From: Vreelandella zhanjiangensis DSM 21076 | Lineage (GTDB): Bacteria > Pseudomonadota > Gammaproteobacteria > Pseudomonadales > Halomonadaceae | Length of the DNA stretch: 64,000 nucleotides | Reading direction: 5' to 3' | NCBI RefSeq assembly: GCF_000377665.1 | Contig: NZ_KB898647.1 | Location: forward strand, 189,559 to 253,558 | Shown: one piece after another, positions 55,494-64,000 of the stretch | Numbering within the stretch: position 1 is the stretch's first letter | Layout of the letters: every line of letters begins with the position of its first letter | Program-made: the position numbers and the translations under genes | Notes under the pieces: generated by a model | What the model was told of the DNA's origin: nothing | The model's database searches: none | What the model saw: only the letters and a program-made list of their open reading frames with translations

Positions 55494-55778
55494 CTAATGC
55501 GAAGCCTGTTCATTGAAAAAAGCGGGGCTGCCCTGAATCGTCGCTAGTACCTTCGCTGCCAACCCAGTAGGGTTACGGCGCTTGGTTGCCCAGCTTTTAA
55601 TGGTGTCCACACTGGTCCCAATAGTCTCTGCAAACTATGCTTGAGAGACGTGCAGCTCGGCTCGAATGGCTCTAATATCGGCTACTTCATGGCGTGTGAT
55701 GCGGCTCGCTTGCGCTTTGCCTTGTTTAATTTCAATGGCTTCCTGCAGCGATGTTTGGAGTTCGTCAAAAATGCTCAT
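55494..55778 (-). pseudogene. HigA-like antitoxin with in-frame amber stop
   Basis: XRE-type helix-turn-helix antitoxin of the HigA2/NadS style, translated from ATG 55778 that overlaps the toxin stop (ATGA). The frame is open for 94 codons except for one TAG at 55635-55637 (codon 48). It falls exactly in the HTH: the text before is LHVSQA and after is FAETIGTSVDTIKSWATK. Relatives have LSQALFAE or SQAEFAE there, so a single-base change from TTG or GAG would explain it. Downstream codons still read as a good HTH, so the lesion is recent, or the stop is read through. Confidence 0.8.
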
Positions 55779-56104
55779 TTGGAAACCTCCTCTTTTAATT
55801 GGTGGGTCAGTGTTTTCAGTGCGGCCTTTTCAGCGAGCGTTAAGCTGTCCTTCACGCTCTTGGGGTGGGCCTGTATCAAGTAGACTCTTTCTACCGTTGC
55901 TAAGAAGTAAATAACTTTAGCTCCACCGCCTTTTCCTTGGTTGCCCAACGCTATACGGATCTTTCGCAGCCCGCCAGTGCTCTGAATAAGGTCACCTTTA
56001 TCGGGTTGAGCAATAAGGATACGTTGCAGTTCCTTCAATTCATCGTCAGTGGCAATGGTCTGAATCTGGCGCGTGAGCATTGGGGGCACGGTCAGCTTTG
56101 TCAT
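55775..56104 (-). CDS. HigB2/RelE-like toxin
   Basis: 109-residue RelE-superfamily mRNA interferase candidate. Seen: GDLIQSTGGLRKIRIALG followed by GKGGGAKVIYFL, the core of the HigB2 group. Gene order toxin-then-antitoxin and the four-base overlap are typical of higBA. The toxin looks intact although its antitoxin has a stop codon, which makes the state of the pair odd. The ribosome site is weak (GGGG close to the ATG). Confidence 0.82.
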   Translation of the reverse strand: MTKLTVPPMLTRQIQTIATDDELKELQRILIAQPDKGDLIQSTGGLRKIRIALGNQGKGGGAKVIYFLATVERVYLIQAHPKSVKDSLTLAEKAALKTLTHQLKEEVSK

Positions 56105-60377: not shown

Positions 60378-60665
60378 ATGACGCTTGAAGCAGCGCTAAA
60401 GCGCTACTTGGCCGATATAATCCCTACCAAGAAGCCCTGCAGCCAGAAAAGCGAACGCCATGCGGCGAATACGCTTATAAAACATTTGGGAAAATATTCT
60501 TTAGCAGTCCTCACGCCAGAGCGTATCGCTATCTACCGCGACAAGCGTTTAAACAGTTTGGGACGCCGAGGGGAGCTAATCAGCCCCAATACCGTGCGCC
60601 CACTCGACTGCTGCAACTTGGTGTTTTTCGGTGAGCCTGGCAAAGAAGGCAAACAGAGTCCTTAG
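60378..60665 (+). pseudogene. Truncated tyrosine integrase (N-terminal core-binding part)
   Basis: About 73 residues match the N-terminal SAM-like domain of phage/island integrases (TLEAALKRYLADIIPTKKPC, LAVLTPERIAIYRDKRL, then ISPNTVR). The match ends there; the following codons read as random sequence to a TAG/TAA, and the catalytic domain with its Arg and Tyr is absent. A dead integrase beside a split host gene marks this as a mobile-element boundary. Confidence 0.7.
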
Positions 60666-61113: not shown

Positions 61114-64000
61114 ATGAGTCGAATCACCCCAGCCGAAGCTTATCAAATATGGGATCGTTTCCTGGAGCAGTGGCCATTAGAGCACCTCGATAAAATGAGC
61201 CTTGAGGAGTACACCTTCGCAGGCGATACCAGTACCTTCACTTATTGGATAGAGAGTGAAACTGAAGCATTGGGCTCAATTTGGGGAGGCTCTGCTTTTA
61301 AGTTTGGAATTTATTCACGACGAAACAAGTCTCCGCGCACAAACAACGCTCGTGCAACTTATAACGATATTTACGGCTGGGGAACGAAGTACGGTGCAAC
61401 CCCGGATGTAGCGTTTGAAGCGGTACGCACAACTGTCGCTGAAATAGCTAGAGCGGCTCGTTCCGGTGATTTAAACGCAATCGACCAAGCTAATCTTGGT
61501 GTAGCTACAAAATGGAAAATCGCATTTCTCTATCAAGATCGTAACAACCCCTGCGTTTTGCCTTTGTATCGAGAAGAGTCATTGCGCATTGTCAGCGGGG
61601 CCGTGAAAACAGCCTCTCCTGCGAGCATGCATAAAAGCTTGCTAGCCGATCGGAATGATAGTGACATTTTTGAATACGGTCGGCAGGTTTGGGAGAAGGC
61701 CTCGAAGCTCCTTGCAGAGCAGTGGTCAGGGCAAAGAGCGCTACAAATCCTGCAGGAGCATGAGGACCTGGTTCCCTATAAAGAATCGACGGACAAAATT
61801 GCTGGTTTTAAGCTGGACGATGACCGTCAACTGGCTTTGGACCTTTCGGCAAAAACACCTGCGCTTTATCTTCAGCCAGGTAACTGGTTAGAAATTGCTA
61901 ATCACTTTCAATCCAAAGCAAAGGAATATGCTCCGGAAGATAGCCGCAACAGCAACCTACAAGCTAATGCTCCACAATTAGCGCAGGGAAATGCTGCAAT
62001 AAAAATATCAGTATCTGATGAAGAAGCTCTTTACGACTTGCTTGCTGCTTACCTCGAGCTATCAAGCAAGCATTCGTCTTCTAGCTCATCTGGTAGTGGC
62101 TCTTTAGTTTTGTCCAAACAACCTCTTAACCAGATCCTTTTCGGTCCTCCCGGAACAGGTAAAACGTACAACACTGTTAATAAATCATTAGCCATTCTCG
62201 CGCCTGAGTATTTGGCCCAACATAACGATGACAGAGCAGCCTTAAAGGAGCGTTTTGATCAGTTACTTCAACAGGATCGCATTAGATTCATAACTTTCCA
62301 TCAAAGCTTCAGCTATGAAGATTTTGTGGAAGGTTTAAGTGCAAGTGTCGATAAAGATAGTAAACAGCTTAACTATGAAGTCGTAGATGGTGTTTTCAAA
62401 TCGTTCTGTATCGCTGCGGCTGCAAAAGTAACGCAGCGCGCGGAGGCGCCCACGGATTTAGGTAAGCGCAGGGTATGGAAGATGTCTCTTGGCAACACTT
62501 TGGGAGAAGATGCTTCAATTTATGATGAGTGTATTGCAGGCGATTATGTGCTACTGGGGTATGGCGACGGTATTGACTTTACAGGCTGCAAAAGCCGACA
62601 AGATGTTCAGGAGCGCTTTGCTGCCGCTGGTGTCATGCCCGAAAACCCCAGCGTTGATTACGGTATTACGAGTGTTACGACCTTTTCAACCCGAGTGGCG
62701 AAAGGGGATCTAGTAGTTGTAACAGATGGGAATTTTAAATTCCGAGCCGTGGGTGAGATAACCGGCGACTATGAGTTTAAGGCCCATGCAGATTATGAGG
62801 ATGGCTACTCACAGCTGCGTTCAGTCCGCTGGCTACGCCAATATCAGCCGTCTCTGCCTCATACGGAGTTGATGAATAGTCAATTTAGCCAGATGACACT
62901 TTATGAGCTTCGTAGCCCTGCTTTAGACAGGGAAAAGTTGCATAGACTTCTGAGTGAAGAAGAACATCTGGCCACTGAGGATCCAAGCTCGGCAACATCG
63001 TTTCAAATAGGCCAGGTTTTCGGCAAAGATTATTCGGTGCTCAGTGTAAGTAGCGATATTCTGGAGCTAAAGAAGCCAAACGGGAAGCAGATTGGGCTGG
63101 CCATGAATATGCTGCGCACACTGGCAGCGTACGTCCGAGAAGGCAGAATCGATATCGAAGATATTCGGGCGAAGAAAGTCTTCGAAAAGGTTCCTGAATC
63201 ATTATTAGAACCTTACCTTGTTCATGGATATAACAATGTTTTACCACAACTTGTGGAGCACCTGCTCCAGCCGTCCAAGATATTAACTCCATCAACAGTA
63301 TCAGAAGATATTTCTCACCCTGTTGATGCCCGTGTGGTAATCATCGACGAGATCAATCGTGGCAATATTTCGCGAATCTTTGGTGAGCTGATCACGCTAA
63401 TCGAGCCCTCAAAACGGGCTGGTGGGGAAGAGGCTCTTTCGGTCACGTTGCCCTACTCCAAGAAGGCCTTCACCGTTCCCTCAAACGTTTACATTATAGG
63501 CACCATGAACACGGCTGATCGCTCTCTGGCAGGTATGGATATAGCTCTCAGACGCCGATTCATGTTCAAAGAAATGCCGCCTAGGCCCGATCTCCTGGTC
63601 GATATACATATAGAGGGCGTGAGCATTCACAAGCTGCTTCAAGTAATGAACCAACGCATTGAGGTTTTGCTAGACCGAGACCATTGCTTAGGGCACTCAT
63701 ACTTTCTGTCACTCCACGAAGATAGAAGCCTGACACGCTTAGCAGGTATTTTTCGAAATCAAATTTTACCTCTGCTACAGGAGTATTTTTTCGAGGATTG
63801 GCAGCGCATCAGCTGGGTTCTGAACGACCAAGCGGCTATTGCTAAAGGAAGTCACCCTTTCATTCAACGCCCACCGAGCGAACAAAGTCTGCATAAGCTT
63901 TTTGGTAACGAAGTTGCTAGCCAGCTAAACGACCAGCGGTGGCAATTAAATGAAGTGGCATTCACCAGTATTGAGAGCTATAGGAATATTCTGGATGAGA
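61114..64000 (+). CDS. McrB-family AAA+ GTPase with PUA/EVE-like insertion (cut by window edge)
   Basis: One frame stays open from ATG 61114 to the window end, over 962 codons. Seen: N-terminal domain (about 1-330) with WGTKYGATPDVAFEAVR and NLGVATKWKIAFLYQ, typical of McrB-like proteins; Walker A GPPGTGKT at 344-351; RFITFHQSFSYEDFVEGL; Walker B VVIIDEINRGN at 741-751; NTADRS at 799-804 and ALRRRF. Between Walker A and B lie about 390 residues, against about 75 in E. coli McrB. The insert holds a PUA/EVE-like domain (about 450-575; IAGDYVLLGYGDGIDF). Such domains bind modified bases. A McrC nuclease is expected downstream, outside the window. Confidence 0.88.
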   Translation, partial: MSRITPAEAYQIWDRFLEQWPLEHLDKMSLEEYTFAGDTSTFTYWIESETEALGSIWGGSAFKFGIYSRRNKSPRTNNARATYNDIYGWGTKYGATPDVAFEAVRTTVAEIARAARSGDLNAIDQANLGVATKWKIAFLYQDRNNPCVLPLYREESLRIVSGAVKTASPASMHKSLLADRNDSDIFEYGRQVWEKASKLLAEQWSGQRALQILQEHEDLVPYKESTDKIAGFKLDDDRQLALDLSAKTPALYLQPGNWLEIANHFQSKAKEYAPEDSRNSNLQANAPQLAQGNAAIKISVSDEEALYDLLAAYLELSSKHSSSSSSGSGSLVLSKQPLNQILFGPPGTGKTYNTVNKSLAILAPEYLAQHNDDRAALKERFDQLLQQDRIRFITFHQSFSYEDFVEGLSASVDKDSKQLNYEVVDGVFKSFCIAAAAKVTQRAEAPTDLGKRRVWKMSLGNTLGEDASIYDECIAGDYVLLGYGDGIDFTGCKSRQDVQERFAAAGVMPENPSVDYGITSVTTFSTRVAKGDLVVVTDGNFKFRAVGEITGDYEFKAHADYEDGYSQLRSVRWLRQYQPSLPHTELMNSQFSQMTLYELRSPALDREKLHRLLSEEEHLATEDPSSATSFQIGQVFGKDYSVLSVSSDILELKKPNGKQIGLAMNMLRTLAAYVREGRIDIEDIRAKKVFEKVPESLLEPYLVHGYNNVLPQLVEHLLQPSKILTPSTVSEDISHPVDARVVIIDEINRGNISRIFGELITLIEPSKRAGGEEALSVTLPYSKKAFTVPSNVYIIGTMNTADRSLAGMDIALRRRFMFKEMPPRPDLLVDIHIEGVSIHKLLQVMNQRIEVLLDRDHCLGHSYFLSLHEDRSLTRLAGIFRNQILPLLQEYFFEDWQRISWVLNDQAAIAKGSHPFIQRPPSEQSLHKLFGNEVASQLNDQRWQLNEVAFTSIESYRNILDE

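Follow-up and report, generated by a model that had tools for sequence, protein, structure and literature searches.

The window analysed here, a 64,000-nucleotide stretch of Vreelandella zhanjiangensis DSM 21076 (contig NZ_KB898647.1, positions 189,559 to 253,558), ends within the first gene of an McrBC locus whose GTPase carries a large insertion in its motor. The mcrB reading frame begins at 61114 on the forward strand and is still open at the window end (61114..64000); the host contig (stretch L009, where the gene occupies L009:2173-5067) completes it to 964 residues, with a stop codon that ends 8 bases past the window. An earlier, sequence-only reading of this DNA had called the product an McrB-type GTPase and proposed that the contig be extended to find an mcrC partner. 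The partner adjoins, 3′ of mcrB and beyond the window, at L009:5064-6335, the two genes overlapping by 4 bases. Its product matches PF10117 (E = 1.6e-106) and PRK09736 (E = 2.3e-27), and a D...DAK motif visible in its sequence is presumably the PD-(D/E)xK nuclease motif. The mcrB product matches NCBIfam PRK11331 (E = 9.6e-35), and the solved motor closest to it by sequence is that of Thermococcus gammatolerans McrB (6ut3; E = 8.1e-60, compared with 1.7e-32 for Escherichia coli McrB).

The AAA+ core of the protein is divided into two halves. The first (residues 333–434; 62110..62415, forward strand) contains the Walker A motif GPPGTGKT (residues 344–351; 62143-62166) together with helix 2 and the hairpin of that helix, and the second (residues 738–961; 63325..63996, forward strand) contains the Walker B core IIDEIN (residues 743–748; 63340-63357), the NxxD signature NTAD (residues 799–802; 63508-63519) and a run of arginines in LRRRF (63547-63561), all of them intact. 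The NTAD sequence differs from the NxD signature by which the CoCoNuTs, the NxD McrB branch, are defined (PMC11090510; here and below, citations refer to the accessible parts of each paper). About 300 additional residues separate helix 2 from Walker B, whereas the same slot measures 24 and 27 residues in two insert-less relatives, of which some 15 are flanking core. The sequence-only reading had Walker A at 344–351, Walker B at 741–751 and an excess of about 300 residues between them, and these placements hold; it took the insert for one domain, but the EVE/YTH-like part that it recognised is one of two modules, here called A and B. The gene pair thus combines the features expected of a type IV McrBC system, namely an adjacent McrC with a PD-(D/E)xK nuclease, an McrB-type AAA+ GTPase that has its Walker A, Walker B and NxxD motifs, and a fused specificity domain whose predicted fold, EVE/YTH, is a known reader fold. 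On sequence grounds we assign it to the McrBC restriction family as a variant of McrBC.

Module A comprises residues 441–616 (62434..62961, forward strand). The AlphaFold2 model of the insert has a mean predicted local distance difference test (pLDDT) score of 89.1, and in it these residues match YTH and EVE domains, including modified-base readers and an endonuclease dependent on 5-methylcytosine or 5-hydroxymethylcytosine (5mC/5hmC). Module A is therefore predicted with high confidence to be an EVE/YTH domain of the PUA superfamily, and a likely base reader. A PUA/EVE domain had been guessed at residues 450–575, and neither outcome named beforehand as fatal to that guess, the absence of mcrC or an insert fold of another kind, was encountered. 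Assignment to the superfamily depends on the predicted fold because sequence searches did not give it: a module A profile, most of whose rows include flanks and many of them module B, gave chance matches only against PDB sequences (best E = 0.12). In a homologue database, 16 of 19 module A matches carry a newer Pfam accession, PF28530, which is absent from the Pfam release scanned here.

Comparison with characterised readers points to two residues in module A. VcaM4I holds the flipped base mainly with P24, W82 and Y130, and the residues emphasised in a Pseudomonas EVE protein are W26 and Y82 (PMC7897488); strand order and motif, without superposition, map the latter two to Y483 and Y553. Among 157 module A sequences, one of which is the database copy of the query, 156 have an aromatic residue at position 483 and all have Tyr at position 553. 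The same residue types are found at 483 and 553 in 17 and 18, respectively, of 18 members of a diverged module A subfamily, and each in nine of ten copies from the Mrr-type family described below. Several other positions are conserved equally, so that conservation by itself cannot single out a pocket; the two kept aromatics are the putative residues of a base pocket. YTH and EVE matches tie in Z score, which leaves the target base undecided. In the host genome, searched for the methyltransferase families PF00145, PF02086, PF01555 and PF02384, the first three have no match and the last has two, on another contig and some 270 kb away. A cytosine mark would thus be harmless to self, and N6-methyladenine (6mA) less clearly so, which mildly favours cytosine modification as the safer target.

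Module A is also found outside McrB. The PADLOC candidate family PDC-S02 matches it in 36 of 36 sequences, and has a match in 46 of 194 genomes of the order. Eleven full-length PDC-S02 loci were fetched (L142-L152), ten of which match the module A profile with E values, calculated for the small set searched, of 4.7e-7 to 5.5e-14; a Pfam scan places an Mrr_cat nuclease domain behind the module in all ten. Module A is therefore the recognition-side half of another restriction-type enzyme, which shares this recognition-type module with the query but is a single protein with no GTPase. Its combination of module A and Mrr_cat resembles the EVE-PD(D/E)XK class of PMC7641849. Two further module A-matching proteins of 208 residues, P0135 and P0139, have no Pfam family, P0139 being named Mrr-cat by one source.

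Module B (residues 622–718; 62977..63267, forward strand) is modelled as strands and helices, and no family was found for it, the best Pfam match having an E value of 0.2. Fold searches used the whole insert and were filled by module A, so they bear little on the fold of module B. No candidate for a small standalone homologue was found, and hhalign comparisons between module B, the 200–330 region and an unrelated insert from other loci gave no homology. That unrelated insert is a third type, of about 115 residues, at the same site in six relatives (L053, L056, L058, L082, L086 and L090); none of the six has a Pfam match, and no profile link joins it to module B. Module B also occurs in 13 minimal Pseudomonas McrBs that consist of the motor and this module, with no N-terminal domain (L031, L037, L040, L041, L043, L045, L046, L047, L049, L051, L052, L054 and L063), 11 of which have an extra C-terminal tail of 79–84 residues.

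The contents of the slot vary widely among related loci. Relatives were taken as the best 80 of 192 loci, and the 77 with both core halves in one frame were retained, three that are split or cut (L060, L061 and L067) being dropped. In 77 of 77 loci with room for it, mcrC lies 3′ of mcrB. Modules A and B are both present in 20 relatives, module A without B in 34 (17 close and 17 diverged), module B without A in 15, the unrelated piece of about 115 residues in 6, and nothing in 2. A tree of the core with 78 rows implies at least 17 changes of insert state, the corresponding counts for the presence of A and of B being 9 and 7. As 26 of the 74 inner branches have support below 80 and the counts were not compared with shuffled labels, weight is placed solely on switches inside starred clades, exemplified by L018 (A and B), L066 (diverged A) and L081 (none).

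A further comparison is a Pseudomonas clade of eight proteins (support 100/100), two with both modules and six with module B. Alignment of L017 with L031 shows module A to be cleanly absent from one of them. Mean motor identity is 85–88% in same-state and different-state pairs alike, whereas identity in module B falls from 80% in the 16 same-state pairs to 65% in the 12 different-state pairs, which are two sequences against six and so not independent. The simplest reading of these alignments is that the insert would be exchanged as a unit. Because relatives carry, lack or replace the insert while keeping the motor, it likely serves as an exchangeable sensor of phage DNA. This behaviour of the insert is what the sequence-only reading, whose interpretation is otherwise supported in part, had missed.

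The protein also has the additional N-terminal domain noted earlier, comprising residues 1–330, from which the sequence-only reading suggested that two features of modified DNA may be sensed or that sensing may be linked directly to GTP turnover. Residues 1–200 (61114..61713, forward strand) are helical in the model, and within them residues 8–141 match PADLOC PD-T4-1 (E = 3.4e-21), a description of which was not found in the accessible text of PMC9519451. Residues 202–326 (61717..62091, forward strand) form a predicted domain that resembles YgaC and, weakly, the DNA-binding domain of T4 MotA. Comparison of the N-terminal model with PDB folds gave no match at E ≤ 0.001, and a second look yielded rows for residues 202–326 and none for residues 1–200. 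Of the listed top 120 database entries, which include that of the query, 114 carry both insert modules as well as the N-terminal module. The sequence-only reading had regarded a reader inside the GTPase as unusual; this count and the statement that insertions are frequent in McrB GTPase domains (PMC11090510) indicate that it is not without precedent.

By contrast, 21 of the 77 relatives begin at the motor with no N-terminal domain, when the first ATG is taken as the start, yet keep an insert. Three N-terminal states were used (PD-T4-1-like, none and other), a single-linkage clustering of the N-terminal pieces having been dropped when it lumped unlike sequences, 29 of them in one cluster. Some of the 'other' cases, such as L013, may be over-extended open frames, and L075, scored as 'none', lacks an ATG ahead of the motor and may use a different start codon. 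Among the 39 N-terminal pieces examined, no match to module A as the N-terminal domain of another McrB was found.

We conclude that this is probably an McrBC-family pair in which a predicted EVE/YTH module, carried by the motor between helix 2 and Walker B, would take a modified base, flipped out of incoming DNA, into an aromatic pocket. McrB is known as a GTPase hexamer, with McrC inserting into its pore, stimulating hydrolysis and cutting (PMC7680126, PMC11090510). Here, the GTPase ring would be built of six McrB subunits, each of them using its module A to recognise the modified base. Docking of McrC in the ring would stimulate GTP turnover, and cleavage of the DNA would fall to the PD-(D/E)xK nuclease of McrC. 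Further DNA contacts likely come from module B and the N-terminal region. Because the N-terminal domain is missing from many relatives, and what is exchanged is the insert, it is probably the insert that serves as the recognition cassette common to the family. We suggest more tentatively that the helix 2–Walker B loop is a cassette port, into which whole recognition cassettes are swapped by recombination, as for the target-recognition domains of type I systems, so that the ring itself would be the reader, the N-terminal domain would be optional and base recognition would gate GTP turnover directly.

Several observations weigh against this interpretation. The query itself has no Pfam EVE, YTH or PUA match, Pfam EVE is matched by 7 of 50 relatives with a best E value of 7e-4, and an hhalign profile comparison of module A with five standalone EVE proteins gave no match. 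The pocket role of residues 483 and 553 is putative, having been assigned by strand order and motif and not from superposed coordinates. One of the 11 full-length PDC-S02 loci, L152, has no module A match. Of the 21 loci with no N-terminal domain, 13 carry only module B, so that an McrBC of this kind can do without module A, and the N-terminal module, kept in 114 of the 120 best entries listed, could be the main reader.

The last point leads to the most durable alternative, which we nevertheless consider unlikely: that residues 1–330 are the specificity module, as the N-terminal regions of E. coli and T. gammatolerans McrB are, and that the insert serves only in assembly, McrC docking or general DNA binding. 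The relatives that have no N-terminal domain retain the insert, with mcrC present wherever there is room, and module A keeps its two aromatics at pocket-like positions and forms elsewhere the recognition-side half of Mrr-type enzymes, all of which tells against this alternative. It is less probable still that what module A recognises is a sequence or structure of DNA or RNA and not a base modification, making the system site-specific. PUA-superfamily domains do also bind RNA (PMC7897488), and the related LlaJI, with an N-terminal B3 domain, binds DNA site-specifically (PMC7680126). Such a system would, however, need a protecting methyltransferase, for which the families searched in the host, others not having been searched, offer just the two distant PF02384 matches; the aromatics at the pocket-like positions are near invariant, and the fold matches include modified-base readers and the 5mC/5hmC-dependent endonuclease (PMC7897488). 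That this McrB now serves outside restriction, like the staphylococcal cell-division protein PcdA, is highly improbable despite the precedent, since the motor motifs of PcdA are degraded and it lacks an McrC partner (PMC10602043), whereas the motifs here are intact and mcrC follows in all 77 loci with room for it.

The setting of the locus fits acquisition by transfer, given its low guanine-plus-cytosine (GC) content, its rarity in the genus and an integrase-like remnant. GC content over the locus is 0.43–0.49 in 500-base steps, against mostly 0.52–0.62 beside it, which bears out the lower-GC DNA described earlier. Among 37 same-genus genomes searched, the window's own is the one with a full-length McrB match, G002 and G035 having weaker matches to the motor core only. 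The 'dead integrase' of the sequence-only reading corresponds to a 95-residue frame upstream of mcrB (60378..60665, forward strand), an integrase-like N-terminal remnant whose sole Pfam match, to the integrase SAM-like family PF14659 (E = 0.0019), scores 18.8 bits, below the 22.6 cut-off. DNA of genome G012 matches the window only up to 59975 (83% identity), with the right flank some 850 kb away there, and this comparison revealed no clean empty site. Elsewhere in the window, a RelE-type toxin gene of 109 residues lies at 55775-56104 on the reverse strand (PF06296, E = 2e-6). Directly after mcrC, outside the window, is a glycosyl hydrolase family 10 gene (L009:6620-8323, reverse strand; PF00331, E = 3.1e-76), its DNA 88% identical to a stretch of the same-genus genome G030.

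Comparison with known systems sets the locus in a wider context. It shares motor family, NxxD motif, gene order and McrC partner with E. coli K-12 McrBC (DUF3578/ADAM reader, NxxD GTPase, McrC nuclease), in which, by contrast, the link between helix 2 and Walker B is short and the reader is N-terminal. T. gammatolerans McrB has a reader of the same fold superfamily, a YTH domain for 6mA (PMC7680126), which lies at the N-terminus and not inside the motor; at the site of the present insert it has about 45–60 residues that align poorly or not at all. Among the EVE architectures of defence systems, EVE-McrB is the most common (PMC7641849). Insertions in the McrB GTPase as such are already published: Bell et al. 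2024 (eLife, PMC11090510) state in one sentence that they are frequent and likely encode specificity domains. The accessible text of that paper names no helix 2–Walker B site, EVE/YTH insert, module exchange or sole-reader case; the only helical GTPase insert that it places is that of Type I-A CoCoNuTs, between Walker B and NxD, and it announces a further publication on McrBC branches. We found no publication on a reader at the helix 2–Walker B site or on insert exchange, in a search of listings with opening abstract text that covered few subscription journals and no supplements, and the pattern of exchange is the part not found in print.

It is an open question how DNA travels with respect to the McrB ring; passage through the pore has been argued against, partly from the positions of the N-terminal domains (PMC7680126). 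McrBs whose sole candidate reader sits on the motor would fix where the recognised base lies with respect to the ring, and so would make the path of the DNA testable. Differing inserts on a near-constant motor, as in the Pseudomonas clade, would likewise provide natural on/off pairs for what each module reads.
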